From IMG/VR virus record IMGVR_UViG_3300020463_000131, positions 1 to 23,992 of that record: DNA of 23,992 nt; one strand, written 5' to 3'. This stretch comes from a virus. Both the position numbers and the translations under genes were made by a program. Every line of letters begins with the position of its first letter. The stretch's first letter is position 1. This document shows, piece after piece, positions 1 through 13,406 of the stretch. The notes below the pieces were generated by a model, which saw only the letters and a program-made list of their open reading frames with translations, was not told the DNA's origin and searched no databases.

Positions 1-597
1 TTGGTCTGCTCTTAGGAATTGTTGTCTGTCTAATCCGTCAAGTTTGTCTGCGTTGATTGCAAGTGCGTCTACGAATGATTTGTCAACATCATTAGTAATA
101 ATATTAGAGACATCCACTGTATCTAATATCGCAGGTGGGTTTGTAATATTATTAAAATCTAGGTAATGAGCAGGTAACTGTCCTCCTAGTTTTTCTGCAT
201 TAGATGCAAGTGTTGCAACCCCAACGGAATCACTTTGACGTGATTGAATGTAGTCTGAATCTATGAGTGCGATTGTTCCTGCAGAGTCTAATTGAAATGG
301 CGCCCAATTACCTGCAGCGTTTGGTAATTCACCTGTGTTACTATCTCTGTGTTGACCTGAACCTAATTGATATTTGTAGTATCTGTCTGCTTCAAATCCA
401 CCATGTGCATTCTTAACATAGACTACCATCCCATCTTGTAGTCTTTGTCCGTGTATCCCTACTACAGTGTCACTATCTACACCACTTACATAACGCAGTC
501 CACCTCTTATCTCTGTGTCTAATGCAATGGGATGATTGGAACTAGGACTCCATGTTCCTGGCCATTGGTTTCTTGTAAGTCCGTTATAATTGGGCAT
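1..597 (-). CDS. Tail-fibre-like protein, C-terminus cut by window edge
   Basis: Reading leftwards from an ATG at 597-595 the frame stays open for 199 codons to the edge, so the end of the gene is missing. The ATG overlaps the stop of the 1010-residue fibre gene in a TAATG arrangement, which indicates translational coupling and supports this start. The protein begins MPNYNGLTRNQWPGTW and carries short spaced motifs typical of phage fibre shafts: Asn-Ala-Glu-Lys-Leu-Gly-Gly near residue 135 and Asn-Ala-Asp-Lys-Leu-Asp-Gly near residue 183. These N-A-x-K-L-x-G units recur in T4-type long-tail-fibre and related proteins. DSA and DSD tripeptides match the neighbouring virion proteins. I infer a fibre or fibre-attachment component made late with the upstream fibre gene. 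The true length and the receptor-binding end lie outside the window. Confidence 0.75.
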   Translation of the reverse strand, partial: MPNYNGLTRNQWPGTWSPSSNHPIALDTEIRGGLRYVSGVDSDTVVGIHGQRLQDGMVVYVKNAHGGFEADRYYKYQLGSGQHRDSNTGELPNAAGNWAPFQLDSAGTIALIDSDYIQSRQSDSVGVATLASNAEKLGGQLPAHYLDFNNITNPPAILDTVDVSNIITNDVDKSFVDALAINADKLDGLDRQQFLRADQ

Positions 598-3500
598 TAG
601 CTAATACTCACATAAGTGTTGCCAGGCTGCAGAGTGATACCGTATAAATTATAGGTCTCTGCACTGTAACCTGCAGGTGGTGAATCTGGTTCCAAATCTA
701 ATGTGCCTGTTACAAATGCAACATCACTGAGTAGTGATGAACTAGCACCAGTTTGAAATGTTGTTGGTTGTGATGCTGCACTCCTTATCATAAACCAAAA
801 TGCACGAGGTGTTGCATTTGGATTGTTAACAGTGCCTGTAAAGTTGTTTGTTTGATTTGATAATTCGTTTACTGCAGATTCAAACTGATCACCATTGACT
901 ACCTCTGCTCTAGTAGGTGCTAATCCTGTACTATTAGTAAAGATCCACAGTGAAGGATATGAAAAGTTTGCATTTAACGAGGTATCGGATGCGGTATCAG
1001 TTGCTGCATATGTAGTTGTTGCAACGCCTGGAGGTCTTCTAAACTCTGTACTCACAGCTACTTGTCTCCCCCCACCGTTGTCTTTGTGTATTGGTGTTGT
1101 AAATGTCAATGTCCCAGATCCAGTAGTACTAGAAAGAGATCCTCCAGTACCAGAAACTGTATGAGTAAAGTTAGCAGAAGATGACATGTTAGTCTGATTG
1201 ACGGTATATGATGTAGAAGTATAAGTCTCAAGGAATTGTTTTCCATTTAAGTTACTCATACTGATTGTCACGTTTGGTGTTTTCCATGTGGTACTGAATG
1301 ATGCAGTTGTACCAAAGTCTGCACCCTGATCATCCGCAAATGTAATTGTTGCAGAGGAAGTTCCACCCGATAAACCTGTGTTATTATCTCTTACTGCGGC
1401 ACCAGATGCAGAGTCAAACGCAAATGTCTGTGTCCAATCTACACCACCTGCAGGAGTTTGACTTTTAGCACCTGCATTGTAGTTACCTAATACCTGACCA
1501 ACATATGCATTTGTTTGTGTAATACCAGATACACTATTGATAAAACGTGTTGGAAAATCTGTTGGGTTATCTATCGATACGGAGAACTGAGTTGCTTTCT
1601 GGTCAAAGTTTAAATTAGTCTGTCCAGTTGCAACAAGTGATGGACTAAACTGTGCAACCTCGATACGAAGTTTATCACCAGTAAAATTCATTTCTCGTAT
1701 TGTGTACACTTCTAGATCAGAGTCGATATAGTTAGTCGCGGTTCTAAATTGGTCTGAAGCACCACTTACTGTCCATGTAATACCTGCCTTGTTACCATCA
1801 TTATTGAGAATGTTGGCATCATATAGTCTGGTAGCAAATGATCCACCATCTGCAGTATTGATTGTGAAATCACCTGTAGCAGAATCCATAGAGGTTGATG
1901 AAACCCCTGCGACTGTTACTGTACCTGCAGAATCTAATTGACCCTGTGCATTAACTGTAAATACTGGAACCTCAGATGCAGAACCGTATGTCCCTGCAGT
2001 AACTCCTGTATTTGTAATATTGATTGTACTAGTGGCAGAATCATATGTAATCCCTGTACCACTTGCAAGTGCTTCGTCTAAGTCGGAGTCAAAGTTTGCC
2101 TTTGTGTAAACCTGTTCAACGTCAAACTGAAACACACCAGTTGCAGGATCATAAGAAAGATCTCCTGCCGCACTTACCGCATGTCTTGCGTCACTATCTG
2201 CACGTGATGATGAATATACTGCATCGTTACTGAGTGAGATCTGACCAGTAGAACTGTCATAACCTATTGCACCTGCACCACTTAAATGTGCACGAACCTC
2301 TGCAGCACTGGGGCCTGTATATGTAAATTTACCTGTGGCGGAGTCATATGTAAGAGATCCATCTCCACCTGCATCAACTAGGTTGATTACATCTCGTACA
2401 CGTTGTATAGTATAATATAGATTTGTACCTTCGGCAACATCAGTAGTTGTCTTGGTTCCTAATGCAGTATCAAATCTCGCGTCTGTATAATATAGGTTTG
2501 TTCCCTCTGCGACATCAGTTGTTGTCTTTGTTCCAAGTCGAACATCAAAATCTGAATCATGTCTTGTAGTAGTATAATATAGATTATCACCTTCTGCAAG
2601 ATCTGTAGTTGTTTTTGTTGCAAGGTCAGAATCAAAACCATCGTAACGACCAGTTAATGTCTCAGCTGAAACGTTTGGTGCAACGATTGGTCTGTTAAAA
2701 TTCCAAGTGTCTGGTGTTGCCTTATAGAAGATATGTGCATTTGCACCCTGAACTGAGATACCTGCAGAGTCTGCTGCGTTTGCATCTGCTGCACCTTGTG
2801 CAAGTTCAATATTCTTATCATCGACTGTAAGAGTTGTTGAGTTGATAGTTGTAGTTGTACCCTCAACCTGTAAGTTACCTTGAACAACTAATGTACCTGC
2901 CGCACCGCCTGGGGTTGGATCAAGAACCATGTCTCCAGACAATGTACTGATAGTATTACCATCAATTTTGATATTGTCAACTTCTAATGATGAAAGTCCT
3001 GTTACGTCAGAATCGAGATAGATGTCAACTTGTGCACCATCTGCAAGATCATGACGTTTTGTGTTTGTGTTGAAACTACCCTTGATCTCAAGTTTGTCAC
3101 CTGCTTTGATGTTACCTGTACCTGCAAGGTTCTCATCTGCATTTGCATGAACTAGATCTAGGTTATCTACGTAATCTTTGTTTACACCATCTGTACCTGC
3201 AACTGGTGTCGCAACATCTGTAAGTCTATCACCCCCAAAGCTTACTGTACCATCAAAACCTTTGAGTGATAATGCACCAGATGTAGAAGCAACAGTAGCA
3301 TCTGTAAATTCTAAATCATCTATATTTAAAGTGCCAGATTGAGTTTCAATCTTTCCGTTTGCGTCAACGACAAGTGCTTTACCACCTTTAAGTTTACCAA
3401 TCGGTGCACTTAAAAGATGTGTATAATATTGACCACCAATAGTTGCATATTCACCTGCATATCCATTACTTTTCTGAGGCCCAACACCAATAAAAAGTCT

Positions 3501-3629
3501 ATCACCACCATCAGAATCACCTGAAACGTAAGTGTATCCCATTTCCCCAATCTTGAGGATGTTGAGACCTTCCTTACCTTCTAATGTCGCGGTAGTAGAA
3601 GATGTTTTTATTTTAAATGTATTTGCCAT
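597..3629 (-). CDS. Large tail-fibre-like virion protein (1010 aa)
   Basis: This is a long Gly/Ser/Thr/Asp-rich protein with almost no Cys or Trp, the usual composition of trimeric phage fibres. An N-terminal part of about 200 residues is followed near residues 250-290 by a segment, GTTTTINSTTLTVDDKNIEL, that is common in fibre and structural proteins of marine T4-like phages. Residues about 335-415 hold three imperfect repeats of TKTTTD(L/V)AEG(D/T)NLYYT. After these come several TYDSATGKF / GYDSSTGQI beta-strand units. The C-terminal third (about 600-1010) is Thr/Ser-rich without recognisable motifs. There is no signal peptide or membrane segment. The ATG lies directly after the stop of the 73-residue gene, and the stop overlaps the next fibre ATG, so this is the third gene of a four-gene late fibre operon. 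The exact fibre (long, short or side) cannot be told from sequence alone. Confidence 0.8.
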   Translation of the reverse strand: MANTFKIKTSSTTATLEGKEGLNILKIGEMGYTYVSGDSDGGDRLFIGVGPQKSNGYAGEYATIGGQYYTHLLSAPIGKLKGGKALVVDANGKIETQSGTLNIDDLEFTDATVASTSGALSLKGFDGTVSFGGDRLTDVATPVAGTDGVNKDYVDNLDLVHANADENLAGTGNIKAGDKLEIKGSFNTNTKRHDLADGAQVDIYLDSDVTGLSSLEVDNIKIDGNTISTLSGDMVLDPTPGGAAGTLVVQGNLQVEGTTTTINSTTLTVDDKNIELAQGAADANAADSAGISVQGANAHIFYKATPDTWNFNRPIVAPNVSAETLTGRYDGFDSDLATKTTTDLAEGDNLYYTTTRHDSDFDVRLGTKTTTDVAEGTNLYYTDARFDTALGTKTTTDVAEGTNLYYTIQRVRDVINLVDAGGDGSLTYDSATGKFTYTGPSAAEVRAHLSGAGAIGYDSSTGQISLSNDAVYSSSRADSDARHAVSAAGDLSYDPATGVFQFDVEQVYTKANFDSDLDEALASGTGITYDSATSTINITNTGVTAGTYGSASEVPVFTVNAQGQLDSAGTVTVAGVSSTSMDSATGDFTINTADGGSFATRLYDANILNNDGNKAGITWTVSGASDQFRTATNYIDSDLEVYTIREMNFTGDKLRIEVAQFSPSLVATGQTNLNFDQKATQFSVSIDNPTDFPTRFINSVSGITQTNAYVGQVLGNYNAGAKSQTPAGGVDWTQTFAFDSASGAAVRDNNTGLSGGTSSATITFADDQGADFGTTASFSTTWKTPNVTISMSNLNGKQFLETYTSTSYTVNQTNMSSSANFTHTVSGTGGSLSSTTGSGTLTFTTPIHKDNGGGRQVAVSTEFRRPPGVATTTYAATDTASDTSLNANFSYPSLWIFTNSTGLAPTRAEVVNGDQFESAVNELSNQTNNFTGTVNNPNATPRAFWFMIRSAASQPTTFQTGASSSLLSDVAFVTGTLDLEPDSPPAGYSAETYNLYGITLQPGNTYVSIS
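2409..2632 (-). repeat. Three imperfect tandem repeats in the fibre gene
   Basis: Three coding repeats lie about 75 and 87 bases apart. Each encodes TKTTTD-x-AEG-x-NLYYT followed by a variable spacer (29, 25 and at least 16 residues). On the plus strand the shared landmark TATAATAT occurs near 2411, 2486 and 2573. The units differ at many third codon positions, so the conservation is at protein level and the duplication is not recent. They probably form repeated turns of the fibre shaft. Confidence 0.8.
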
Positions 3630-3851
3630 TTAGAAAGTCCCTGCATCTAACTCTAAACCATCTGGTTCAGTAGTTGCTTCGAACTTTCCTGATGATACAT
3701 TAAACTGAAGAACAGCAAAATTACCATTCCCAGATAAATCTACATCTGTTAAATCGCCTATACCTTGAGCCTGTGCACCAGTTACTTTTTTAACTGGAGT
3801 ACCAACTGTAATTTTTCTGATATGTGTTTGGACTGGAGGAATTTCTGACAT
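3630..3851 (-). CDS. Small virion-associated protein (73 aa)
   Basis: This small ORF is packed between the BppU-like gene and the large fibre gene. Its ATG overlaps the upstream stop by one base (position 3851), and its stop abuts the next ATG, so it is clearly part of the late fibre operon. The central and C-terminal part reads LTDVDLSGNGNFAVLQFNVS followed by SGKFEA. This is the 'L-x-D-V-D ... L-x-Y/F ... S-G-K-F' unit found repeatedly in phage fibre proteins, where it forms a short beta-structured module. The N-terminal 30 residues are basic (RKITVGTPVKKVTG). It could be a fibre-attachment or adaptor protein. No enzymatic motif is visible and the function is inferred from position and composition only. 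Confidence 0.7.
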   Translation of the reverse strand: MSEIPPVQTHIRKITVGTPVKKVTGAQAQGIGDLTDVDLSGNGNFAVLQFNVSSGKFEATTEPDGLELDAGTF

Positions 3852-4195
3852 TATGTTACCGATGGGTTAGCTCGTATCTTTCCTTCAAGGACTCTCTCAA
3901 CTACTGTTGATCCATTGGAGTCAACAAAAGAGATTTCCACATCATAAACGTAGTTACCGACACGAAGTTGGTTAGTCTGTAGGTTTGTCAAGGAAAGAGT
4001 TACTACACCATCAGTAGGTTGTATTGCTACGGAGAAGTCAGTTGTGTCAGCAGAATCGGAATTGTAGTTCCGTTTCATTTTAGCTGCAGCAGAATAATTT
4101 GAAAGATCCTTTGGATTACCACTAAGGTCTACAAGTTCTAATTGTACTGCGATATCCGACCCGATGTCGAATGTAAATTTTTCGTATTCTGCCAT
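3851..4195 (-). CDS. BppU N-terminal-like Ig-fold virion protein (114 aa)
   Basis: First gene of the fibre operon, starting 42 bases downstream of a T4-type late promoter box. The protein reads as one beta-sandwich domain: an N-terminal strand (FTFDIGSDIAVQLEL), a 'DLSNYSAAAKMKRNY' segment, a 'GVVTLSLT' strand, a 'LRVGNYVYDVEI' strand and a C-terminal 'VVERVLEGKIRANPSVT'. The order '(dis)placed ligand, D-L-S-x-Y-x-A-x-A-K-M-(K/R), G-x-Y-x-Y-D-V-E, V-x-x-V-L-E-G' is that of the BppU N-terminal family (baseplate upper proteins), also seen in small proteins of marine T4-like phages. In those phages such proteins sit next to fibre genes. I infer a baseplate-to-fibre or decoration role. The family call comes from memory of the pattern, not from a search. 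Confidence 0.7.
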   Translation of the reverse strand: MAEYEKFTFDIGSDIAVQLELVDLSGNPKDLSNYSAAAKMKRNYNSDSADTTDFSVAIQPTDGVVTLSLTNLQTNQLRVGNYVYDVEISFVDSNGSTVVERVLEGKIRANPSVT

Positions 4196-4237
4196 TTCCC
4201 AATCCGATACTAAGTAACTCGTGCATCATGTTACGTT

Positions 4238-4245
4238 TATTTATA
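4238..4245 (-). promoter_or_regulatory. T4-type late promoter for the fibre operon
   Basis: A perfect TATAAATA box on the minus strand, 42 bases before the ATG at 4195. T4-like phages read such boxes with their own late sigma factor (gp55). It sits in an AT-rich near-palindrome (TTATT-TAT-AATAA, 4237-4249) just past the stop of the kinase-like gene at 4250. The same box occurs before two other operons in this window. Confidence 0.75.
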
Positions 4246-4249
4246 ATAA

Positions 4250-4753
4250 TTAGGAAGACCAGAATTTATTTTTTAAATCTATTCTTTCATTTTCTACTAT
4301 TTCATCAACACTTTTTTTAAGATACTTGTTCCATTCTAACAATTTACTTTTACGATCTCTTGGATTATACGTATCAAAGTCAACAAGATAGAGAGTATCA
4401 GTGTTTTTTTCTATGACAAAGTTTTCAGGTTTTAAATCACTAAACCCCCAATGATCTTCTCCATCTACTAGATCTTCTTTTATGACATCTTTCCAATTTA
4501 CAAAGGTAGTTGCACCTAACTGCCTACCTTTTATAAATTCTATTTCAAATAAAATTTCATTATCAATAATCTCATATGTGAATTCAGGAATTTTTATTCT
4601 GTTGAAATCTTGCGACTTTATTCTTTCTAATCGCTCTACCCATATTTCTGGATCAAAGGTATCTTTGTCAAAAATTAATTTTTTTTGAAATCTAAATCCA
4701 ACTTCTATGGGCGTATTAATATATTTTCCACCCCTTTTATAACACGTAAACAT
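4250..4753 (-). CDS. Small protein-kinase-like protein (167 aa)
   Basis: I chose ATG 4753 over an upstream TTG at 4786, which overlaps a predicted -35 element. The C-terminal half carries a kinase-type catalytic loop, FSDLKPENF (residues 104-112), with the catalytic Asp106, Lys108 and metal-binding Asn111, then VDFD (124-127), where Asp125 would take the place of the DFG Asp. A strand of the form ILFEIEFIKGRQLG (67-80) resembles the hinge of kinase-like folds (protein kinases, APH, Kdo/WaaP kinases). The N-lobe is very short: there is no glycine-rich loop, and the ATP-anchoring lysine is uncertain (Lys24 or Lys25). At 167 residues it is about half a normal kinase. It may be a minimal kinase for sugar or protein, or a pseudokinase. 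It diverges from the glycosyltransferase cluster, so a related role in surface or virion modification is possible. Confidence 0.6.
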   Translation of the reverse strand: MFTCYKRGGKYINTPIEVGFRFQKKLIFDKDTFDPEIWVERLERIKSQDFNRIKIPEFTYEIIDNEILFEIEFIKGRQLGATTFVNWKDVIKEDLVDGEDHWGFSDLKPENFVIEKNTDTLYLVDFDTYNPRDRKSKLLEWNKYLKKSVDEIVENERIDLKNKFWSS

Positions 4754-4756
4754 ATT

Positions 4757-4786
4757 AATATATAGTAGTGGAAAGGTTGATGTCAA
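4757..4786 (-). promoter_or_regulatory. Sigma70-like promoter for the kinase-like gene
   Basis: On the minus strand TTGACA (4786-4781) is followed after 18 bases by TATATT (4762-4757), or after 16 bases by TATATA (4764-4759). The expected transcription start falls within about three bases of the ATG at 4753, leaving almost no leader and no Shine-Dalgarno sequence. This is a host-sigma (early-type) promoter, unlike the TATAAATA boxes of the structural operons. Confidence 0.5.
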
Positions 4787-4812
4787 AGTTTTGACTTTTG
4801 ATTGATGTCAAA
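4777..4812. repeat. Direct repeat TTGATGTCAAA, possible operator
   Basis: The 11-mer TTGATGTCAAA occurs at 4777-4787 and again at 4802-4812, a 25-base period. Each copy is itself a near-palindrome (TTGA-TG-TCAA). Between them lies a CAAAGT-TTTG-ACTTTTG hairpin-like stretch. The copies overlap the -35 elements of both divergent promoters, the expected place for a shared repressor or activator site. Function is inferred from position. Confidence 0.45.
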
Positions 4813-4818
4813 TATTAT
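4791..4818 (+). promoter_or_regulatory. Sigma70-like promoter of the glycosyltransferase cluster
   Basis: TTGACT (4791-4796), a 16-base spacer, and TATTAT (4813-4818). The predicted start seven bases past the -10 box is position 4825, the A of the ATG of the first gene, so the transcript may be leaderless. No Shine-Dalgarno sequence precedes that ATG, which is consistent with this. Confidence 0.5.
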
Positions 4819-4824
4819 AGTATT

Positions 4825-5364
4825 ATGAAGATCATATTATTAAAACATGGCGATAAATATAATGCAGAGGATGTAAATCGTCAAGCAGAAAAGATAAGAG
4901 AATACTGCGACCATGAAATTTTATGCTTGACAGAAGATCCAACTGGTGTTATAATAGGTATAACCCCTATACCTGAGAGGCCGAGGTTAACTAAGTGGTG
5001 GAACAAGTTACATGTTTTTAGATCCGACTGGACTATCAGGGACAGATGTGTTCTTTTTGATCTGGATATTCGTATTACTGGTAATCCTTTTCCTACCATA
5101 GAAAAGATAGATTGGAACAGGCCTCACTTCATCCACGATTACTGGAAAAAAGATCTCGATTATCGTCCTCACGCATATGAGACGGAGATCAATAGTTCTA
5201 TCTTCGCATGGACTCCCCACAAAAACCCAGAGTTCTGGCAGATTTTCGCCAGTAATATAGATTATAATACTCGTAAGTACAAAGGAATAGATCGATACAT
5301 CTGGGATCAGAAATTAAACTATGGAACATTTGATGACGAAATACATACAAAAATCGTTCTTTGA
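4825..5364 (+). CDS. Glycosyltransferase-like protein (179 aa), first gene of cassette
   Basis: I chose ATG 4825 (MKIILLKHGD) because the upstream TTG at 4798 lies inside the promoter. It resembles the short GT-A-fold glycosyltransferases of large marine phages: an N-terminal beta strand, a 'TKWWNKLHVF' segment (residues 56-65), a strand ending in the DxD-type metal and nucleotide-sugar motif VLFDLDIRI (77-85; D79-L-D81), then 'INSSIFAW' (122-129) and 'YKGIDRYIWDQ' (152-162). The last two occupy the place where GT-A enzymes keep the acceptor-side N-(S/T)-G/S-(I/V)-F and (D/N)-x-x-x-(I/L/W) motifs. No signal peptide or membrane helix is visible, so it should act in the cytoplasm. Donor and acceptor are unknown. 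The 3' end overlaps the methyltransferase gene by 32 bases. It is shorter than the two following paralogue-like genes. Confidence 0.65.
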   Translation: MKIILLKHGDKYNAEDVNRQAEKIREYCDHEILCLTEDPTGVIIGITPIPERPRLTKWWNKLHVFRSDWTIRDRCVLFDLDIRITGNPFPTIEKIDWNRPHFIHDYWKKDLDYRPHAYETEINSSIFAWTPHKNPEFWQIFASNIDYNTRKYKGIDRYIWDQKLNYGTFDDEIHTKIVL

Positions 5365-5971
5365 TGACAAAGTTTTACCTCTACTCAGTTTTCTTTATAC
5401 TGACACGATGTACGAAAAGAACTTTGATTACTACAGAATAAAAGATATCTTAGATCAATACGACCCCAAACAAATAGAATGTAAACAATGGGTGGTAGAC
5501 AAACTCTTACCGTTTATAAACAAAGAAGATGAGATTGCAGTAATAGGTGGTTGGTATGGATTGATGTCGCACATGCTTGCAGAATGTCTAGACAATACCA
5601 TAATGGATTATGAACTAGATGCAGTCTGTATTGAACTGCATTACAGATTAAAAGTACACGACAGTATCATGATAGAGTTAAAAGATGGGTTAGAAATATT
5701 CGATGACAAAGATCTGAATGGAAAAGACAAAGTCATCATATGCACAGCCTGTGAACATATCGATGAAGAAGATTTATATGGTGCATTGTCTATGAAGAAT
5801 CCATATTCCTTAGCTGTTCTACAATCTAACAATATGTCACACATTGACAGTCATGTAAACTGTCACTCCTCTCTTGATTACTTTATAGAGTCTTTACCAG
5901 ATATGGAAATACTTTACAAAGGCACAAAGGTTTTTGATGACTATGAAAGATACATGGTAATCGCACGATGA
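5333..5971 (+). CDS. Class I SAM-dependent methyltransferase-like protein (212 aa)
   Basis: The N-terminal 60 residues are helical. The nucleotide-binding core then starts with IAVIGGWYGLMSHMLAE (68-84), in which GGWYG (72-76) corresponds to the glycine-rich motif I of Rossmann-fold methyltransferases. It is followed by a second strand with acidic residues at MDYELDAV (91-98) that could hold the SAM ribose. KVIICTACEHI (133-143) sits at the motif IV position, and HVNCHSSLDYF (174-184) is a conserved-looking distal segment of phage versions. Two ATGs are possible, 5321 and 5333. I prefer 5333 because GGA lies 8 to 10 bases before it. The gene overlaps the preceding glycosyltransferase by 32 bases and the next by 4 (ATGA), so all four genes form one transcript. 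The substrate could be a sugar, peptide or small metabolite and is not visible in the sequence. Confidence 0.65.
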   Translation: MTKYIQKSFFDDKVLPLLSFLYTDTMYEKNFDYYRIKDILDQYDPKQIECKQWVVDKLLPFINKEDEIAVIGGWYGLMSHMLAECLDNTIMDYELDAVCIELHYRLKVHDSIMIELKDGLEIFDDKDLNGKDKVIICTACEHIDEEDLYGALSMKNPYSLAVLQSNNMSHIDSHVNCHSSLDYFIESLPDMEILYKGTKVFDDYERYMVIAR

Positions 5972-6822
5972 AAACACTAATCTATAGTATGTACATACAT
6001 ATTCCAGATCACATGATAGAAGCGGAACATTCCGATTGTGAGATAACAAAGACTAAAACTCACGAAACAACCAACAAGATGTTAGAGAACTATCACTGGT
6101 TGAGGGCCCAACATGAAAAGTATGCGGAACTGTGTGGTGCAGATTACAAACTATTTGAGTTTGATGATGATTATCTATCGTTTAGAGAAAAGTTTTTCCT
6201 TGACAAACCACACATAACGATGTATAACATAATAAACTTCTATAAGATCTGGTTGCTTTATCAAAACTTAGAATATGACAGAATACTTTACATAGACTTT
6301 GATGTAATTCCTATCACAGAAAAAAATGTATTTGAGGAACTAGACTTCGACTCTGGTATATTGTGCAGAGTAAACCATGAGGGAACTTATTCTACAAAAG
6401 ATTTTGGTACTCATACTATAAGATCACCGAGAGCAAAGTGGTGGAACGCCAGAGAGTTGCTTTTGGACGAAGGATTTAATGGAGAGAATGATGTATACAA
6501 TACTGGAATTGTTGGTGCAACTCCAGAGAACTTAGATAAACTATCTTACTTCAAAGACTTTGAAGCATCTCTTGAGATGATGCATGAAAAGGCAACGGAT
6601 AAAATGTATCCACAAAAGATAAGGTCTATGCTTGGATATGATAATGAAACTCTGTTCAGTTACCTTATGCAAGTAAACGATGTTAAACTCAACGACATGT
6701 CAGAAGACTGGCACTTCGTTATGAATCACAAGTTTGCCTTTATTCCTGATAGAGTAAACTTAGTCCACGCAATTAATAAAGATTTTGAGTATGCGAAAGA
6801 TTATATTCAGCGTTTGGTCTGA
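5968..6822 (+). CDS. GT-A-fold glycosyltransferase-like protein (284 aa)
   Basis: The start overlaps the methyltransferase stop as ATGA. Features of GT8-like or related GT-A enzymes are present: 'YAELCGADYKLFEFD' (52-66), a strand and DxD motif RILYIDFDVIP (105-115; D110-F-D112), an acceptor-side NTGIVG (178-183), DNETLFSYL (225-233) and the C-terminal LVHAINK (265-271), where the histidine could serve as the third metal ligand. The order DxD, NTG(I/V)xG, D/N-N-E-x-x-x-S-Y, H-x-x-x-K is repeated in the next gene. The protein is soluble with no signal peptide. The function is transfer of a sugar from a nucleotide-sugar donor, but donor and acceptor are unknown. This is the longest of the three transferases, and an insertion at about 120-165 ('VNHEGTYSTKDFGTHTIRSP') is absent from its neighbour. 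Confidence 0.75.
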   Translation: MKTLIYSMYIHIPDHMIEAEHSDCEITKTKTHETTNKMLENYHWLRAQHEKYAELCGADYKLFEFDDDYLSFREKFFLDKPHITMYNIINFYKIWLLYQNLEYDRILYIDFDVIPITEKNVFEELDFDSGILCRVNHEGTYSTKDFGTHTIRSPRAKWWNARELLLDEGFNGENDVYNTGIVGATPENLDKLSYFKDFEASLEMMHEKATDKMYPQKIRSMLGYDNETLFSYLMQVNDVKLNDMSEDWHFVMNHKFAFIPDRVNLVHAINKDFEYAKDYIQRLV

Positions 6823-7429
6823 TCTAGGAAGATCTTGGTCAAAACATAAAGACTCATTGATAAGAAACCATAAGGACTATGCTAGGCTCTGTGGTGCAGA
6901 TTATCATTTGTTTGAGACAGATCTTGACTACACTGAATTAATGTTTTTTAAAATAAAAAAGGCAGAAGAACTTGTGGAGGCCTGTGATGCAGTTTTGTAT
7001 CTAGATGTGGATGTGATACCCAAGACTGTCATGTCTTTCTTTGATGCTCACAATCTGAACACTGTTAGTCTACACCAAACTCTAAAACCTGACTGGAAGA
7101 TCAACCTAAAACAAATGATGTTAATAGATGACGGCATCATGGGTAACGATTACATATGCAACACTGGAGTTTTTGGTTTAAATAAAAAATCTTCAGATCT
7201 ATTGATGTTCTCTGAAAGATTAGAAGAGTCCATGAAACTACATAACGAAGTTGACAATAACGATCTCTATCTTCCAAACAATGAAGTGTACGTTTCTTAC
7301 ATAATAGAAAAGTATAATGTTCCTATAAAAGACATAGGTATGCCATGGAATTTTATTTTAGATAAAAATTTTAAAACTTCGACAGACGCATGTTACTTCT
7401 TACATCAATCTAATAAAGAATTTAAGTGA
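6791..7429 (+). CDS. GT-A-fold glycosyltransferase-like protein (212 aa)
   Basis: I chose ATG 6791 (MRKIIFSVWS); a TTG six bases upstream is the only earlier option. It overlaps the previous gene by 32 bases. It shares the core of the preceding gene: 'YARLCGADYHLFETD' (30-44), AVLYLDVDVIP (67-77; D72-V-D74), YICNTGVFG (121-129), NNEVYVSYI (163-171), and a C-terminal 'YFLHQSNKE' (202-210) with the metal-ligand histidine. The two genes are therefore paralogues of one another, probably duplicated in the phage lineage and then diverged. It is cytoplasmic with no membrane segments. It is the last gene of the plus-strand cassette, and its 3' end overlaps the 3' end of the radical SAM gene by 25 bases on the opposite strand, with no terminator between them. 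Substrate unknown. Confidence 0.75.
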   Translation: MRKIIFSVWSDLGRSWSKHKDSLIRNHKDYARLCGADYHLFETDLDYTELMFFKIKKAEELVEACDAVLYLDVDVIPKTVMSFFDAHNLNTVSLHQTLKPDWKINLKQMMLIDDGIMGNDYICNTGVFGLNKKSSDLLMFSERLEESMKLHNEVDNNDLYLPNNEVYVSYIIEKYNVPIKDIGMPWNFILDKNFKTSTDACYFLHQSNKEFK

Positions 7430-8601
7430 GGTGCTAGTTCGAATATATCTTCATCATTCATTCTAGCAATCAAACAGAAGTCAATCCATCTCAGCATTCT
7501 TTCTCGCATCTCTCTTACCTCGGTATCCGTTGTTGGTTCAATGCTCTTCATGTTACCAATTCCACTTACCATGAGGTTGTCTGTCTTGTAGATATCATGT
7601 TTTTCTACATAGTCATAACTGTCAAGATAGTCAAAAAACTTTTTCTTTCCTTCTTCTATCTGGTGGACTGGTAGATATAATGGAGAACAATACTTTGGAA
7701 AGGTTACAATGTTTGCCATACTAATTCTTGCAACACCTTCTATATCTTTCCAGTAGTCTATGAGTTCTGGTAAATGCATCCAGTTATAGATCGATACTGT
7801 AGAGACAATAACTATCTTACGTTTAGCATATTCATAGTAACGGTTTATATTATTTACAGTCTTCTCAAAGTTACCACCCCTAATCCAATTGTAGAGAGAA
7901 CCAACACCATCGATACTGGCCTGAATATGTACTTCGTCAATCTTATGCAACAACTCAATAACTGATTTAGTAACCAGCTGGAAGTTTGTGCAGATCTCTA
8001 CCCGACACTTAGGGTTTGTGTCTGCGAGTTTTTGTAGTATCTTTATATTGTTTGGATCTGCGAATGGTTCTCCACCTTTAATCGTCAGATGTTGTAGATG
8101 TGGAACGGTGTATAAAATTTTATCGACATCGTCATCTGTCATCTTGTATTGTTGGGTGTGGAATTTATGGTTCTCATTTCTCCAGTGGAGTCCGACATCC
8201 ACTGCTTCTTGCTCGTATGGTGCCCACTTTGAAGAGTATTTTCCACTACAAGTAACACACATCTGATTACAAATATTACTAGTAGTAATTTCCAAAAAAC
8301 GGATAGGTATTGTTTCACTGGTGATATCCTCTTCGTATGTGGGGAAGTTAAATCTATTATAAGAATCGAACCTAGCAATTCTACCTGCTTCCCAGTGGAC
8401 TTTACATACGTTACACTGGGATGGAAAAGCTTTTGATTTAAATTTATTTCTAAGATCTTCGTAGATATCCGAATTAAAAAACTGAGTGATGTTGTCCACA
8501 TTCTTTATATGTTCTACAGCAACATTATCCCCTGCACAACAGAGTACAATCTCACCAATAGGATTTATGGTGAGTCCTGTTTCAGGAACCATGCATTTCA
8601 T
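7405..8601 (-). CDS. Radical SAM protein with N-terminal twitch-like Cys cluster (398 aa)
   Basis: The SAM-binding [4Fe-4S] motif is at residues 111-118, CNQMCVTC (Cys111, Cys115, Cys118; CxxxCxxC), followed by GGEPF (176-180), the usual GGE motif for SAM binding, and further barrel strands (VEICTNF 201-207, HIQASIDG 225-232). Before the barrel lies a second Cys set: Cys3, then Gly16-x4-Cys21-Cys22, and Cys63-x2-Cys66. The spacing C-x12-G-x4-C matches the first half of a SPASM/twitch auxiliary-cluster domain, which normally follows the barrel but here precedes it. Such enzymes modify peptides or sugars. No precursor peptide was found. Its ATG overlaps the stop of the 176-residue gene (ATGA, 8598-8601), so the two are translationally coupled. 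Related twitch-type radical SAM proteins occur in marine phages; the substrate is unknown. Confidence 0.85.
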   Translation of the reverse strand: MKCMVPETGLTINPIGEIVLCCAGDNVAVEHIKNVDNITQFFNSDIYEDLRNKFKSKAFPSQCNVCKVHWEAGRIARFDSYNRFNFPTYEEDITSETIPIRFLEITTSNICNQMCVTCSGKYSSKWAPYEQEAVDVGLHWRNENHKFHTQQYKMTDDDVDKILYTVPHLQHLTIKGGEPFADPNNIKILQKLADTNPKCRVEICTNFQLVTKSVIELLHKIDEVHIQASIDGVGSLYNWIRGGNFEKTVNNINRYYEYAKRKIVIVSTVSIYNWMHLPELIDYWKDIEGVARISMANIVTFPKYCSPLYLPVHQIEEGKKKFFDYLDSYDYVEKHDIYKTDNLMVSGIGNMKSIEPTTDTEVREMRERMLRWIDFCLIARMNDEDIFELAPHLNSLLD

Positions 8602-9128
8602 TTTTTTAAATGATTTGAAATTACACTAAGAACTTCATGAACATCTTTTGCCTTACGAATATTCTTTTTAAAATTTTTATCAGTGTCTTTAAGTTTATCC
8701 CATTCAAATGTTGCTAACTTGAGTAGAAACAATCGTTCTTTATTTTCTTCGTCTGTAGAATCTTCTCTACTATCTAAAGTAAAGATTACTTCTAATAACT
8801 TTGTCATACTTTGTTTGTTGAGATCATCTTTAGTATCTGCCAAAAATTTATCTTCTGCCGCAACACTATCGATAATTATTTTCTTGTGTGTTTCTTCTAA
8901 CTCTTTCAACCTGATATAGGTTCTTTCGTAAAGATCTTCTAACGTTATAAGTCTACCAGTTTCATCAATAGGTGTTTTTAAAAACTTCTCCCATTCACTG
9001 TCACCTTCTTCAGCAACAATAATTTGACTCTTATAAGTTTTGTTTTTGATATCGAAATAGAGAGTGTCTAGAGTTTTTCTTTCTTCATCAATAAAATAAG
9101 CATCTACAAATTTGTGTCCTTCAATCAT
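8598..9128 (-). CDS. Helical protein of unknown function paired with radical SAM gene (176 aa)
   Basis: I do not recognise this family. The protein is acidic and lysine-rich, with no Cys, no signal peptide and no membrane segment. An N-terminal alpha/beta part (residues 1-60: 'MIEGHKFVDAYFIDEERKTL', 'LYFDIKNKTYKSQIIV') is followed by helices. Residues 64-90 (LEDLYERTYIRLKELEETHKK) and 145-170 could form coiled coils. It lies 2 bases after the stop of the 329-residue structural protein and overlaps the radical SAM ATG by 4 bases. Coupling with the enzyme suggests a partner or chaperone. Alternatively it is the last gene of the structural operon, for example an assembly factor. The sequence alone cannot decide between these. 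Confidence 0.75.
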   Translation of the reverse strand: MIEGHKFVDAYFIDEERKTLDTLYFDIKNKTYKSQIIVAEEGDSEWEKFLKTPIDETGRLITLEDLYERTYIRLKELEETHKKIIIDSVAAEDKFLADTKDDLNKQSMTKLLEVIFTLDSREDSTDEENKERLFLLKLATFEWDKLKDTDKNFKKNIRKAKDVHEVLSVISNHLKK

Positions 9129-9130
9129 AA

Positions 9131-10120
9131 TTAAGTCCTATCTAGTTTTAGTCTCCATGTAGTTTTTACTGATACAGTTCCGTTTGGAAATTCTTGAGCA
9201 CGATAGTCATCTAAGCCAGGTGTCACCTGTCGAGTATTGTGATCTCCTGTAACACCAGACATTGATCTGTTAGTTATCGCAGATCCTTTTGTCGTACCAC
9301 TTCCATCTATAGCATATGATAAAGTATTACCTGTACCATCATATGCTTCCTGTATAATTAATTTGCAAAACAAATCATTAAATTCAGTACTAGTCATTTC
9401 TCTTAATCCTGCAGGATTATTTCTCCCATTACTAGTATAATCTATCACTAATGGCAATCTTTTAGCAACTGCTACACCATTATTTTTATGTAGATAATAA
9501 TTAACAGTTGAAGCTGTGTCTACGTGATCTTGATAAGTTCCACTAGTACCTATAGATGAAGCACTATATAGACTTAGTTTAGTCACCGTGTCTGTAAATA
9601 TTAAACCTAATTGAGTGCAATTTGTTTCAGATGTACTTGTACTTACAAAGAAAGATCCTCCTGCATTTGCAGCAGTGGTTCCACTTACTATATTGTCAAT
9701 TACAGGATCTATGAATGTGTCTAATACATCCTGAAAAGACATCTCTCTTATAATACTATCCGTTTCCATATAAACAGGTTTTGCAGTCCAACTATTCCAA
9801 GTAGTGGAAGTAAATCCAGTCGCTGGGTTTGTTCTAGTCTGACTAATGTAATCGTAAGTAGCAACATTAATTTCTTCTGGTTCACCTGTAGTTGTTTCTG
9901 CTGGAAATGCAGATACACTTGTTGATACAGGCCCTGATCTAAAACGAGTATCAACAAATCCTGTTAGATTACCATTGTTACCAGACACATAACTTAAAAA
10001 TACCGATGGATCATCCGCATAACATTTAGCAATGACCTGATGAATATTATCTCTTTCAGTATTTGTATACTCTTTTATTGCCTCTGCATCTTTAGTGACA
10101 AGAGCTCTTCGAACTGTCAT
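9131..10120 (-). CDS. Virion structural protein of unknown family (329 aa)
   Basis: The gene overlaps the preceding DSA-repeat gene by one base and ends 2 bases before the next ATG. The N-terminal 60 residues are helical (EAIKEYTNTERDNIHQVIAK), and the rest is Ser/Thr/Gly-rich beta structure. Visible landmarks are 'TTWNSWTAKPVYMETD' (about 105-120), 'VNYYLHKNNGVAVAKRLPLV' (about 208-227) and a C-terminal 'GTVSVKTTWRLKLDRT'. Composition and position at the end of a tail operon indicate a virion protein, perhaps a peripheral baseplate or fibre-base component. I see no similarity to T4 gp9, gp11 or gp12. The family is unrecognised. Confidence 0.7.
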   Translation of the reverse strand: MTVRRALVTKDAEAIKEYTNTERDNIHQVIAKCYADDPSVFLSYVSGNNGNLTGFVDTRFRSGPVSTSVSAFPAETTTGEPEEINVATYDYISQTRTNPATGFTSTTWNSWTAKPVYMETDSIIREMSFQDVLDTFIDPVIDNIVSGTTAANAGGSFFVSTSTSETNCTQLGLIFTDTVTKLSLYSASSIGTSGTYQDHVDTASTVNYYLHKNNGVAVAKRLPLVIDYTSNGRNNPAGLREMTSTEFNDLFCKLIIQEAYDGTGNTLSYAIDGSGTTKGSAITNRSMSGVTGDHNTRQVTPGLDDYRAQEFPNGTVSVKTTWRLKLDRT

Positions 10121-10791
10121 TATGGCACACTTACTGTATTTGAGGTTGATAAGAAATAACCGCCGAGTACTACGTTACCAGCCTCATTCTTTACTGTGAA
10201 TAGTTTTAGGTTATCTAATGCTCTCTGTACATTACCTGCATCATCCATGTATAAGGTGGTGACAAATGTATTCTCTATTGTCGCCATGTCAAAGTATGCA
10301 GAGTCTGCACTAAGATTATGTGTTGTTAATGTATTAATATGTGCACTATCCGATAATAGATTAGGTACTCTTAATCTTTGTATGGTTGCAGAGTCTATAA
10401 GTGCGGAGTCTATTATTGCTTCAGTAACTGTTAATCTTTCAATTCTTGCACTATCAACCATTAAGAAATCAACGTCTAGATTTTTAATAAATGCAGAGTC
10501 GATAGTCGCACTGTCTGCAAGAAGTTGACCTGCCCTAATTAAATTGAAAGATGCTGAGTCGCAATTGATACCTTGCATATGTAAAGGCCCTGCAGATTCA
10601 CCAAACAATCTCCTGTTAATAGAGTCTGTTAAATCACCAACTCTATTCAATGCAGTTACTACTGTAGTATCAGCACCTGAGAAAGTAGAGTCTAAATCAT
10701 CCAGATCTCCAATGTAATCGGATATCTGGTTGGTCTTGGTCATAAAAGAACCAACTGCGTCTGTTAAATCTACTGTTACCTTACGTGTCAT
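10120..10791 (-). CDS. DSA-repeat virion protein A (223 aa)
   Basis: The N-terminus 'MTRKVTVDLTDAVGS', 'KTNQISDYIGDLDDL' is closely matched by the upstream neighbour, so the two are tandem paralogues. From about residue 75 to 175 the protein repeats a unit D-S-A-x-(I/F) eight times (DSASF, DSATI, DSAFI, DSARI, DSALI, DSATI, DSAHI, DSAYF) at variable spacing, alternating with hydrophobic strands. This suggests a beta-helix-like shaft. The C-terminus ends with 'NEAGNVVLGGYFLSTS', also mirrored in the neighbour (NENSVDRFGAYFLDDSS). A ribosome site (AGAGGT) precedes the ATG. It is probably a peripheral baseplate or fibre-network protein of the marine T4-like type; the exact role is unknown. Confidence 0.8.
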   Translation of the reverse strand: MTRKVTVDLTDAVGSFMTKTNQISDYIGDLDDLDSTFSGADTTVVTALNRVGDLTDSINRRLFGESAGPLHMQGINCDSASFNLIRAGQLLADSATIDSAFIKNLDVDFLMVDSARIERLTVTEAIIDSALIDSATIQRLRVPNLLSDSAHINTLTTHNLSADSAYFDMATIENTFVTTLYMDDAGNVQRALDNLKLFTVKNEAGNVVLGGYFLSTSNTVSVP

Positions 10792-10813
10792 TTTTTACCT
10801 CTAACACTATATA

Positions 10814-11620
10814 TTAACTAGAATCATCTAGAAAATATGCACCAAACCTATCTACACTATTTTCATTTTCGATTCTAAATTTCTTTACTAATCCGACATA
10901 ACCGTCACCATCCATGCGTAATTGATTTATAGCAAGTTGATTAAAGGTGGCATTTTGCGCTGTAAATACAGGACTGAATAAATCTTCTACGTCTGTATTA
11001 CCTGTCACACGTGCAGAGTCTGAATGCAGGTTGACGGCATGTAAGTTTATTATTCTTGCACTATCAATCTCTGCAGTGCCGTTTTGATTGTCAGCTGATG
11101 ACATTCCACCAATTCTTACACGATCATAAATAAATGCACTATCGTTAACGTCTAAAAAGTTACCGACCTTTGCCACATTTATATGTGCACTATCACAAAC
11201 GAAATCAAATGCATTAGTGCCTGGAGAGTCGCCTAACCAATATGGTTTGTCGTTTTGGTTGAAGTTAGGGCCTGGCATCGCATCATCAGTATTTAATACC
11301 TGATCGACTCTCAGTATGTTTCTAATGTGAGCAGACTCACCATGAAAGATTGCAGTTACTGGTTTGGTTCCTGCACCAGAAGATATAGGTTCACCAGCTT
11401 CAAAGAATAAGAAGTGAATTCGATCCCCAATTTGTGTTGAAGAATTTAATGCAGCAACAAGATTAGAATCTTGTCTGGTATCTGGTGGTGCATAGAACGG
11501 ATTCGAATCAAAAATCTGACCTAGATCATCCAGATCTCCTAAGTATTCAGACATCTGTTGAGTCTTGGATTTCCAAGTACCGATAGTATTTGTTTTTTGT
11601 ACGGTTACCTTACGTGCCAT
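10814..11620 (-). CDS. DSA-repeat virion protein B, paralogue of A (268 aa)
   Basis: N-terminal homologue of protein A: 'MARKVTVQKTNTIGTWKSKT' then 'QQMSEYLGDLDDL', with the Leu-Asp-Asp-Leu ending identical. The middle carries an insertion of about 60 residues not found in A ('DRIHFLFFEAGEPISSGAGT', 'FNQNDKPYWLGDSPG'), then four DSA units (DSAHI, DSAFI, DSARI, DSARV) plus a degenerate one (GESAHI). The C-terminus ends with the shared (G/A)-Y-F-L motif. It starts one base over the stop of the 66-residue gene. The stop lies 22 bases before gene A. The pair probably arose by duplication and may form a hetero-oligomer in the virion. Function not known. Confidence 0.8.
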   Translation of the reverse strand: MARKVTVQKTNTIGTWKSKTQQMSEYLGDLDDLGQIFDSNPFYAPPDTRQDSNLVAALNSSTQIGDRIHFLFFEAGEPISSGAGTKPVTAIFHGESAHIRNILRVDQVLNTDDAMPGPNFNQNDKPYWLGDSPGTNAFDFVCDSAHINVAKVGNFLDVNDSAFIYDRVRIGGMSSADNQNGTAEIDSARIINLHAVNLHSDSARVTGNTDVEDLFSPVFTAQNATFNQLAINQLRMDGDGYVGLVKKFRIENENSVDRFGAYFLDDSS

Positions 11621-11820
11621 TACAACTTCTCTAAAATTTGTTTCATCATATCTTTGAGATCGGAAACATCTTGTTTTAGATCATCAATCTCTTCTTGTTT
11701 TTTCTTCCATGCCTTCTTACGGGATCTTGCTGCTCTTATTTCTTCAGTACTGGTATTTAAGACTACTCCACGTTCATCTTTCACTAAACCTTCATAACCA
11801 TCAACTTTTCTATGTTTCAT
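11620..11820 (-). CDS. Small coiled-coil protein (66 aa)
   Basis: The protein begins MKHRKVDGYEGLVKDERGVV and LNTS, a pattern (K-V-x-G-Y-x-x-L-V-(R/K)-D-x-x-x-G-x-(V/I)-(L/I)-N-T) that I associate with small proteins found in tail-gene clusters of marine T4-like phages. Residues 45-66 form a perfect heptad: Ile45, Leu48, Val52, Leu55, Met59, Ile62 and Leu66. This is a short parallel or trimeric coiled coil. Both ends overlap neighbours by one base (11820 and 11620), so it is translated in step with the tail proteins. It may be a virion trimerisation or plug element, or an assembly helper. No known T4 counterpart is recognised. Confidence 0.75.
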   Translation of the reverse strand: MKHRKVDGYEGLVKDERGVVLNTSTEEIRAARSRKKAWKKKQEEIDDLKQDVSDLKDMMKQILEKL

Positions 11821-13406
11821 TATACACTCAATGCGATTACTCTTAAATCCTTTATACTTGGAACTTGTGCAGAGTTAGTAGAAGTCATAACAATTTTCAA
11901 CTGAAACTTTGTAAAGGCAGGAACATTACCTCCTTGTCCACCGATTAGATATTCATATTCTCTGAAAGTTTGTTTGTTTGCATCTGGGGGGTTATTAGAT
12001 GATGTTATTTGTTTAACAAAATCAACAGCACGAATATCTGTACCTTCATCACAAGTTCTATAATAAAGTTCTATTCCTGCAGGTTTTGGTCTATTTGCGG
12101 CAAGAATAACTTTCAATCCAACTGCAGTCTCTGCAAGAGTTGTTACAGTTGTAATATGTTTTGCTGGCCCAGAAGATCTGTTTGCATTAGTTTCTGAGAT
12201 AAAATTCAATGGAATGTTAAATCCATTAGTCGCAGCGGAATCTTGATTATCGATCACATTATCAATCAATGTTATAGAACACCTTTGAAGATCAATAACA
12301 GGAGACACAGTATCAAGTGCTGTAGTCATCTTGATTTCCATTTCTGCAGTCGATGCACCTACCGCAATCTCTGCATCTGCAATTGAGTCTGCAGCAATAA
12401 CATAAGGATGTTCTAGTGCAAAGTTATTTTTATTTAAACTCACACCTGTGAAATCTGCATCTACTGTATAAGGTGTTTCTACACCTGCAAGGGATTTACC
12501 ATTAGTACCTTTGAAAGAAGCATACAGATCAGTTCCGTTTGGTTTTAGATTTGATATGAAAGGCCATACAATAGAGTATGGAATGTTCTTTGTACTTTGT
12601 ACTATAGATCCACCACCTACTTCATCAGAGTCTGCAAGACCTGCAATTTTAAATTCAAATCCACTTGCGTCTATACGAGTAATACTATGATCACCGTTGA
12701 TTTGATTTGCAGTGAATCCACCGACAGAACTAGAACCTGTTATAGAAACAGTATCACCGACTTGTAGTCCATGGTTTGTATGATATACTCTAACATCACT
12801 GTCAGCTTCGTAAGTCCTAATTGGATTTGCATTCAATAGTTCACGAGGAACTGATGCATTTTTTAACTTGACAACTGGTAGAGTTGTGGTAGTATCAAAT
12901 ACTGCACGAACAATATCAAACTTCAGATCTTGTTTTTGGTTTGCAGAGAAAGTTGCACCATTTTGAGAATAGAACAAACTACCTAAGTTGGGGTTTAAAC
13001 TGACACGTGCAGAAGCAGAACCAATGATTTGATCATCTATTTCAGATATAAAGATCTCATACTCTGGTGTTTCTGCATAAACTACAATCGCATAGTCTCT
13101 AAGACCATCTAAAAAGATTGGTTCGTTAAAAGTAAACGCTGTTGCAGTCGAACCATCTGTAGATGTTTGCACCGCATTGTGAGCAACATAAACTGTAGAT
13201 CCAGGCACAACCTCTACGTCAGAAGGTACACCGTTTCTCATTGGTCTTAGATGCAGCATGACAGGAAGTTGCAACTCTGCAGTTGCAGGAAACGTAGTTT
13301 TAAAATATAAATTTATTTTAGTTACGTAAATCCCACTTGTTTCGTCAACAAAAAATGATTGAGCAATCGGGTTTTTATTCTGTTGATATCCTAAAGAATT
13401 TAACAT
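11820..13406 (-). CDS. Tail structural protein, partner of the DUF4815 protein (528 aa)
   Basis: Residues 11-30 (NPIAQSFFVDETSGIYVTKI) begin a domain of the form 'N-P-(L/I)-A-Q-(S/T)-F-x-V-(D/E)...G-(I/V)-(F/Y)-(L/V)-T-(K/S)-(I/V)-(D/N)-L-(F/Y)-F', which continues with 'MLHLRPMRNGVPS' and 'FLDGLRDYAIVVYAET'. This jelly-roll-like unit commonly follows DUF4815 sequences in phages and can be fused to them; here it is a separate gene. Around residues 205-265 a second module appears: 'YHTNHGLQVGDTVSITG', then 'INGDHSITRIDASGFEFKI', a repeat-like domain common in marine phage tail proteins. The ATG overlaps the stop of the upstream gene. I expect a baseplate or fibre-network component, not an enzyme. 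Confidence 0.75.
   Translation of the reverse strand: MLNSLGYQQNKNPIAQSFFVDETSGIYVTKINLYFKTTFPATAELQLPVMLHLRPMRNGVPSDVEVVPGSTVYVAHNAVQTSTDGSTATAFTFNEPIFLDGLRDYAIVVYAETPEYEIFISEIDDQIIGSASARVSLNPNLGSLFYSQNGATFSANQKQDLKFDIVRAVFDTTTTLPVVKLKNASVPRELLNANPIRTYEADSDVRVYHTNHGLQVGDTVSITGSSSVGGFTANQINGDHSITRIDASGFEFKIAGLADSDEVGGGSIVQSTKNIPYSIVWPFISNLKPNGTDLYASFKGTNGKSLAGVETPYTVDADFTGVSLNKNNFALEHPYVIAADSIADAEIAVGASTAEMEIKMTTALDTVSPVIDLQRCSITLIDNVIDNQDSAATNGFNIPLNFISETNANRSSGPAKHITTVTTLAETAVGLKVILAANRPKPAGIELYYRTCDEGTDIRAVDFVKQITSSNNPPDANKQTFREYEYLIGGQGGNVPAFTKFQLKIVMTSTNSAQVPSIKDLRVIALSV

Follow-up and report, generated by a model that had tools for sequence, protein, structure and literature searches.

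An exchangeable enzyme cassette among the tail genes of a marine T4-like phage is linked to a virion-type gene and may glycosylate the phage particle

When a phage carries sugar-modifying enzymes among its tail genes, are they directed at its own particle or at the surface of its host? The question arises for a marine T4-like phage represented by IMG/VR virus record IMGVR_UViG_3300020463_000131, whose entire 23,992-bp sequence is referred to here as the window and one end of which falls inside fibre genes. The minus strand carries nearly all of the window's genes (gp25, labelled from its position; gp6, labelled from its position and a separate comparison; gp8-like, gp9-like, VrlC and further tail genes), and its tail genes read toward the fibre genes at 1-4195. 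An original prediction, made from the sequence alone, had described three GT-A-like glycosyltransferases, a class I methyltransferase and a kinase-like protein at 4250-7429 as an inverted cassette that might add a glycan to the fibres or alter the host surface. All five open reading frames (ORFs) are present on the expected strands, and the block is correct as far as it goes; it is only part of a cassette that extends over 4250-9128 and includes two genes of the late operon that had been missed, a radical S-adenosylmethionine (SAM) gene, RSAM, and the small gene Q176. Between the virion-type gene s329 and the fibre-assembly-like gene A114 lie Q176 and RSAM on the minus strand, four overlapping enzyme genes (GT1, MT, GT8-like and GT3) on the plus strand and the small kinase-like ORF KIN on the minus strand (Table 1). 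We give roughly even chances to the reading that this is a late-made, exchangeable module that glycosylates and tailors the s329 protein or its partner.

The linkage of the enzymes to s329 carries this reading. Relatives were gathered by five protein scans and their gene order was then compared. IMG/VR holds at least 447 relatives of s329. They were found with the s329 alignment as the sole query, hence blind to the enzymes; the best 80 of the 447 were kept, and 57 of these loci have at least 6 kb downstream. Q176, a glycosyltransferase and a methyltransferase were each found downstream of s329 in 55 of the 57 loci, and all three in 54. Glycosyltransferase genes are in this way stably linked to a gene whose position in the late tail operon points to a virion protein. 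The core of the module is s329, Q176, a glycosyltransferase and a methyltransferase, and further glycosyltransferases, the radical-SAM enzyme and sugar-tailoring enzymes vary. A radical-SAM gene was found in 40 of the 57 loci, a count that was the same with a filtered model and is possibly still somewhat high, since single-linkage clustering appears to have merged carbamoyltransferase-like proteins of ~500 amino acids with the radical-SAM family, as judged from their HDxNTYDG starts and from the annotation of the cultured Pelagibacter phage Mosig; radical-SAM labels on proteins of 460-505 amino acids in the gene-order comparisons are unreliable for this family. The near-universal linkage to s329 and Q176 is not predicted by the published alternative, in which the enzymes alter the O-chain or another surface polymer of the host, to exclude competing phages or to stop progeny from sticking to debris, and their adjacency to the tail genes reflects a recombination hot spot.

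The linkage persists where the module lies elsewhere in the genome. In one group of loci (L028 and its relatives) a late box is followed by a gene for a 61-72-amino-acid protein, s329, Q176, a radical-SAM gene, GT1, MT and GT8, all co-directional. The module in L028, L045 and related loci adjoins a phage curli operon (CsgG, 2e-48), not the tail locus. A 221-kb record of this group (G001) has its sole s329, Q176 and MT at 96-103 kb and VrlC at 46-49 kb; the complete set, preceded by a late box, stands ~50 kb from the tail locus, and among the genes that follow VrlC there is neither s329 nor Q176 nor an enzyme gene. Some curli-adjacent records hold s329 and Q176 in two copies each, which is what one would expect if the two act as a pair. 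Such a joint move is beyond what vertical inheritance of a single gene order can account for, which leaves a functional tie as the simplest reading. Joint relocation away from the tail locus is likewise not predicted by the host-surface alternative, and relocated modules leave the fibre genes behind, which argues against the idea that the enzymes decorate the neighbouring distal fibre proteins A114, fib1010 and fib199.

At the tail locus, the cassette has been exchanged between phages. One relative, L073, matches the window at 93% over 2-4254 and at 94.7% over 10012-14213, and the cassette between those flanks is unrelated, its sole DNA match being one of 69% over part of s329/Q176. The converse was found in L083, which shares window 4811-9210 at 85% with flanks at 66-75%, and in which most cassette genes have diverged less at synonymous sites than the backbone genes have. 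Right-hand breakpoints converge on 4250-4254 in five relatives, adjoining the late box, and left-hand breakpoints fall at ~9210 or 10012, so that the junctions are the conserved late promoter and the inside of s329. The modular, swappable cassette that had been foreseen is therefore borne out by gene content among relatives. When annotated phages were searched at the DNA level for this block, no match was obtained. Against L002 (the same contig as L083) the ratio of nonsynonymous to synonymous substitution (dN/dS) of the cassette genes is 0.07-0.18, which denotes purifying selection and implies that the genes are real and functional.

The same comparison bears on the fibres. L073 keeps A114 and the fibre genes at 90-100% despite its unrelated cassette, contrary to what decoration of the fibres would lead one to expect. 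Distance correlations were calculated over up to 26 records and are indicative values, since the single-linkage families contain paralogues and the records are related. The structural genes co-vary (A114 with fib1010, r 0.78; s329 with A114, r 0.69), as do GT1 and MT (r 0.49), whereas neither GT1 nor MT shows any correlation with A114 or fib1010 (r -0.14 to -0.02). The picture is not uniform, as GT8/GT3 similarity correlates with A114 (r 0.53); this and adjacency speak for the fibres, as all 29 distinct loci with both Q176 and A114 have at least one glycosyltransferase or glycosyltransferase-like gene between the two. On balance we regard fibre decoration as improbable. Enzyme type goes with s329 and its downstream partner Q176, not with the fibre genes at 1-4195, and the link to the neighbouring fibres in the original prediction is replaced accordingly.

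We then considered when the module is made. The window has only three exact sites of the T4-type late box, TATAAATA; each is on the minus strand and ahead of structural genes, as had been proposed. The site ahead of A114 is conserved: of 44 distinct relatives, 38 have TATAAATA no more than 70 nt upstream of this gene, vs 0.42 expected, so this box, shortly upstream of late genes and above chance, qualifies as a T4-type late promoter. A late box also precedes the enzyme operon in 3 of 17 inverted cassettes (0.41 expected, P 0.007). The host-sigma-like promoters that had been assigned to the enzymes did not stand up. Sigma-70-like sites in the region number 21 vs 24.9 +/- 4.9 in shuffles, and the best one ahead of GT1 is within chance (P 0.11) and not kept in the closest relative; host sigma-70 promoters were rejected as an above-chance feature. 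A perfect 12/12 sigma-70 consensus with TGn (TTGACA-17-TATAAT) occurs at 4927-4955, inside GT1 codons; we did not accept it as promoter evidence, as its TATAAT half is kept in relatives but tracks the codons of a conserved protein motif. As for orientation, of the 20 loci of the Q176-A114 set in which MT was placed, 12 have it inverted and 8 have it running with the late tail genes; in the s329-selected loci it lies on the minus strand in 33 and on the plus strand in 22. Inversion is thus neither essential nor defining, and expression before the late genes, which had been suggested on the strength of the sigma-like sites, is not supported, given the chance-level counts, the co-directional loci and the enzyme sets behind a late box. 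The co-directional late arrangement in many relatives would also be late for superinfection exclusion, a further point against a host-surface role.

The enzymes themselves are consistent with glycan synthesis. All three GT-A-like glycosyltransferases were upheld: the DxD motif (FDLD) is invariant in the GT1 family alignment (n=18), and the DxD, NT(G) and C-terminal His columns are invariant or nearly so in the GT8-like/GT3 alignment. The GT8-like protein scores under the curated PF01501 threshold (20.7 vs 24.3 bits) and is therefore called GT8-like, not a family member; 6 of its 19 relatives match PF01501 at E<=1e-3, the best at 2.2e-6, and it is 40% identical to Mosig_00091. The DxD regions of the GT1 and GT8-like family profiles align weakly (E 0.009, probability 4%), and PDB profile searches with the GT1, GT8/GT3 and MT alignments returned nothing significant. 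MT nearly always accompanies GT1. Its motif pattern agrees with the predicted class I methyltransferase; its best profile matches, spermidine synthases, are weak (E ~0.05) and it has no Pfam methyltransferase match, so the assignment stays at the level of a likeness. The relatives of MT in Rhizobiales are conserved chromosomal genes next to glycosyltransferases and an ATP-binding cassette (ABC) transporter, and those in Bdellovibrio-type and gammaproteobacterial genomes sit within radical-SAM-rich gene runs. KIN is kinase-like at the level of its motif: it falls below the Pfam Pkinase cut-off (12.3 vs 31.7 bits), the catalytic motif is degenerate in distant relatives, no significant family match was obtained, and a PDB profile search with its alignment gave nothing significant. 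A scan with KIN itself found no relatives; these were recovered only via neighbouring genes, and KIN is present in several different cassettes. Larger islands of relatives add a sugar aminotransferase (DegT), an epimerase and an SGNH hydrolase, in keeping with the general glycan role first proposed.

T4-type phages are known for DNA glucosylation, and in a further alternative the glycosyltransferases would modify phage DNA bases against restriction. The T4 enzymes AGT and BGT have the GT-B fold, whereas those of the cassette are GT-A/GT8-like with DxD; moreover, the window holds no base-hydroxymethylating gene and the linkage is to virion-type genes, and we consider this explanation very remote.

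RSAM overlaps GT3 tail to tail and belongs to the twitch-domain family N_Twi_rSAM (NF033640; 211.2 bits vs a cut-off of 170, over residues 3-396 of 398), with the CxxxCxxC motif as CNQMCVTC. Its closest solved relatives are the peptide maturase SkfB and radical-SAM entry 5v1q (E 0.011 and 0.025; weak), and the C-terminal end of s329, YRxQEFPxG, is nearly invariant in the family alignment and falls on the cassette side of the 9210 breakpoint. Both would suit a scheme in which RSAM modifies the s329 peptide, for example at this end, in the fashion of a maturase of ribosomally synthesised and post-translationally modified peptides, with the sugar enzymes secondary. That scheme sits poorly with the lower frequency of radical-SAM genes than of glycosyltransferases and methyltransferases in the s329 loci, and no N_Twi_rSAM substrate was found in the literature searched; we give it little credence, at most as much as fibre decoration.

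For the glycosylation of s329 or its partner, we envisage the following course. Late in infection, Q176 would bind or fold s329; the GT-A enzymes would build a short saccharide on s329 or its assembly partner; the methyltransferase and the radical-SAM enzyme would tailor that saccharide; and the resulting particle, carrying an exchangeable glycan, might differ in adsorption, shielding or stability, independently of distal fibre type. Q176, encoded directly or one gene downstream of s329, is a putative chaperone or adaptor of s329, judging from this position and its model. From the linkage to s329/Q176, the target would seem to be the phage's own particle, in place of the host surface or in addition to it. 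Several observations weigh against this. The enzymes correlate with s329/Q176 weakly, if positively (r 0.22-0.41); L083 combines a cassette 80-93% like that of the window with an s329 of only 50% identity, so that enzyme and s329 sequences need not co-evolve; s329 is placed in the virion by its position and has no recognisable fold relative; and the cellular MT relatives adjoin polysaccharide genes, which fits a host-surface target too. A host target is further favoured by the GT8-type enzymes, the sugar-modifying genes of the larger islands, the Rhizobiales neighbourhoods and the lack of correlation with fibre type. With the linkage, the relocation and the late arrangement against it, we think a host target, the main alternative, unlikely, though well short of negligible. 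A wider form of particle decoration, a transferable "decorated adhesin" unit in which s329, whose fold matches nothing known, would be passed on together with its partner and their own glycan enzymes, from phage to phage and from one genome site to another, and give fibre-independent particle glycans, is possible at somewhat under even chances.

The location and general content of the module are already known. The locus is the published host recognition cluster of pelagimyophages and cyanomyophages: it lies directly after VrlC in the tail region and has non-syntenic, variable content with fibres and glycosyltransferases. The cluster has the neck gene gp14 as its other border, and the window ends within the fibre genes. 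Zaragoza-Solas et al. 2020 (PMC7029224) described this variable cluster after VrlC, in which GT8-type glycosyltransferases and radical-SAM cassettes are interspersed with tail fibres; they read the glycosyltransferases as modifiers of the host O-chain, reported gradual divergence and did not find late promoters in these phages. To this common ground our analysis adds clean cassette exchange, the conserved TATAAATA at the border, a regulatory landmark missed by the earlier survey, and the fixed core of s329, Q176, glycosyltransferase and methyltransferase, for which we found no description in the literature searched (open-access text only). The isolate closest in cassette content is Pelagibacter phage Mosig EXVC030M (MT647606); it has s329 (Mosig_00097), Q176, MT, GT8 and GT1 in like arrangement with A114 at the other end. 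In its island an epimerase gene separates s329 from Q176, and there are ~20 further enzymes, among them an aminotransferase, an annotated carbamoyltransferase, dioxygenases and nitroreductases. Phage C48C1 (OQ984149), the closest isolate in A114 (62% to its "L-shaped tail fiber protein assembly"), has a Q176 homologue at the equivalent site, but just two of its genes there (c26, c22) look enzyme-like, the place of s329 is taken by a very large gene, and none of the window's enzymes is present. Phage enzymes that glycosylate virions are already known from mycobacteriophages, whose glycosyltransferases modify the phages' own capsid and tail proteins (Freeman et al. 2023, as cited in PMC12363180). 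These unrelated phages would be an analogue in the way of working; as far as that citation goes, the glycan has been shown there and no s329/Q176 or radical-SAM partner is known, whereas for the module of the window the glycan is a prediction. The purpose of hypervariable islands in large marine T4-like phages has so far been guessed at. If our reading is true, they vary the surface chemistry of the particle itself and are not host-metabolism genes or superinfection tools, and it predicts a glycan on an s329-type protein that could be checked in a cultured Pelagibacter phage.

Table 1. Coordinates of the cassette, its borders and neighbouring features in the window.
Feature	Position	Strand	Description
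A114	3851-4195	-	phrog_1084 3.1e-20, phrog_3304 8e-14; L-shaped-tail-fibre-assembly-like; conserved right-hand border of exchange site
Late box TATAAATA	4238-4245	-	T4-type; ahead of A114; right-hand cassette border
KIN	4250-4753	-	kinase-like ORF; DLKPEN...DFD; Pkinase E 0.11; start ~4753 from homologues
Two direct copies of TTGATGTCAAA	4777-4812 (starts 4777, 4802; 25 bp apart)		divergent KIN/GT1 intergenic region; candidate operator
GT1	4825-5364	+	GT-A-like glycosyltransferase; phrog_1962 "glycosyltransferase" 3.3e-8; start 4825 from homologues
MT	5333-5971	+	class I SAM methyltransferase-like; motif pattern and weak PDB profile matches; start 5333 from homologues
GT8-like	5968-6822	+	284 amino acids; PF01501 3.4e-4; YIDFDVIP, NTGIVG, C-terminal His
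GT3	6791-7429	+	214 amino acids; paralogue of GT8-like enzyme; YLDVDVIP; start 6791 from homologues
RSAM	7405-8601	-	twitch-domain radical SAM; NF033640 E 2.6e-62; PF04055 6e-13; late operon
Q176	8598-9128	-	176 amino acids; small helical; directly downstream of s329; model pLDDT (predicted local distance difference test) 85.8; putative chaperone
s329	9131-10120	-	virion-type protein; left-hand exchange border; proposed substrate or partner
VrlC	11820-17431	-	two adjacent ORFs, 13406-17431 and 11820-13406; phrog_358 2.4e-219 and 4.4e-108

The AlphaFold model of s329 is confident (pLDDT 94.6) and apparently shows three pseudo-repeats; no match of Z >=2 was obtained among Foldseek-ranked PDB chains and none that was significant in BFVD. 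A structure search with Q176 gave no more than weak matches, to helical bundles and DnaK-like proteins (best Z 6.9), which were not used as evidence, and a PHROGs search with the Q176 and s329 families returned nothing useful. The ~500-amino-acid protein annotated as a carbamoyltransferase is carried by large islands (that of Mosig; L120, 12829-14334) and starts with HDxNTYDG in relatives. Beyond the cassette, the VrlC of the window matches the annotated VrlC of Mosig; it is split into 1341 + 528 amino acids in the window and close relatives and is a single protein of ~1700-2050 amino acids in others. In window 10120-11620, the gene s268 is a relative of s223 and ranks among the structural genes that change fastest, with dN/dS up to 0.6.

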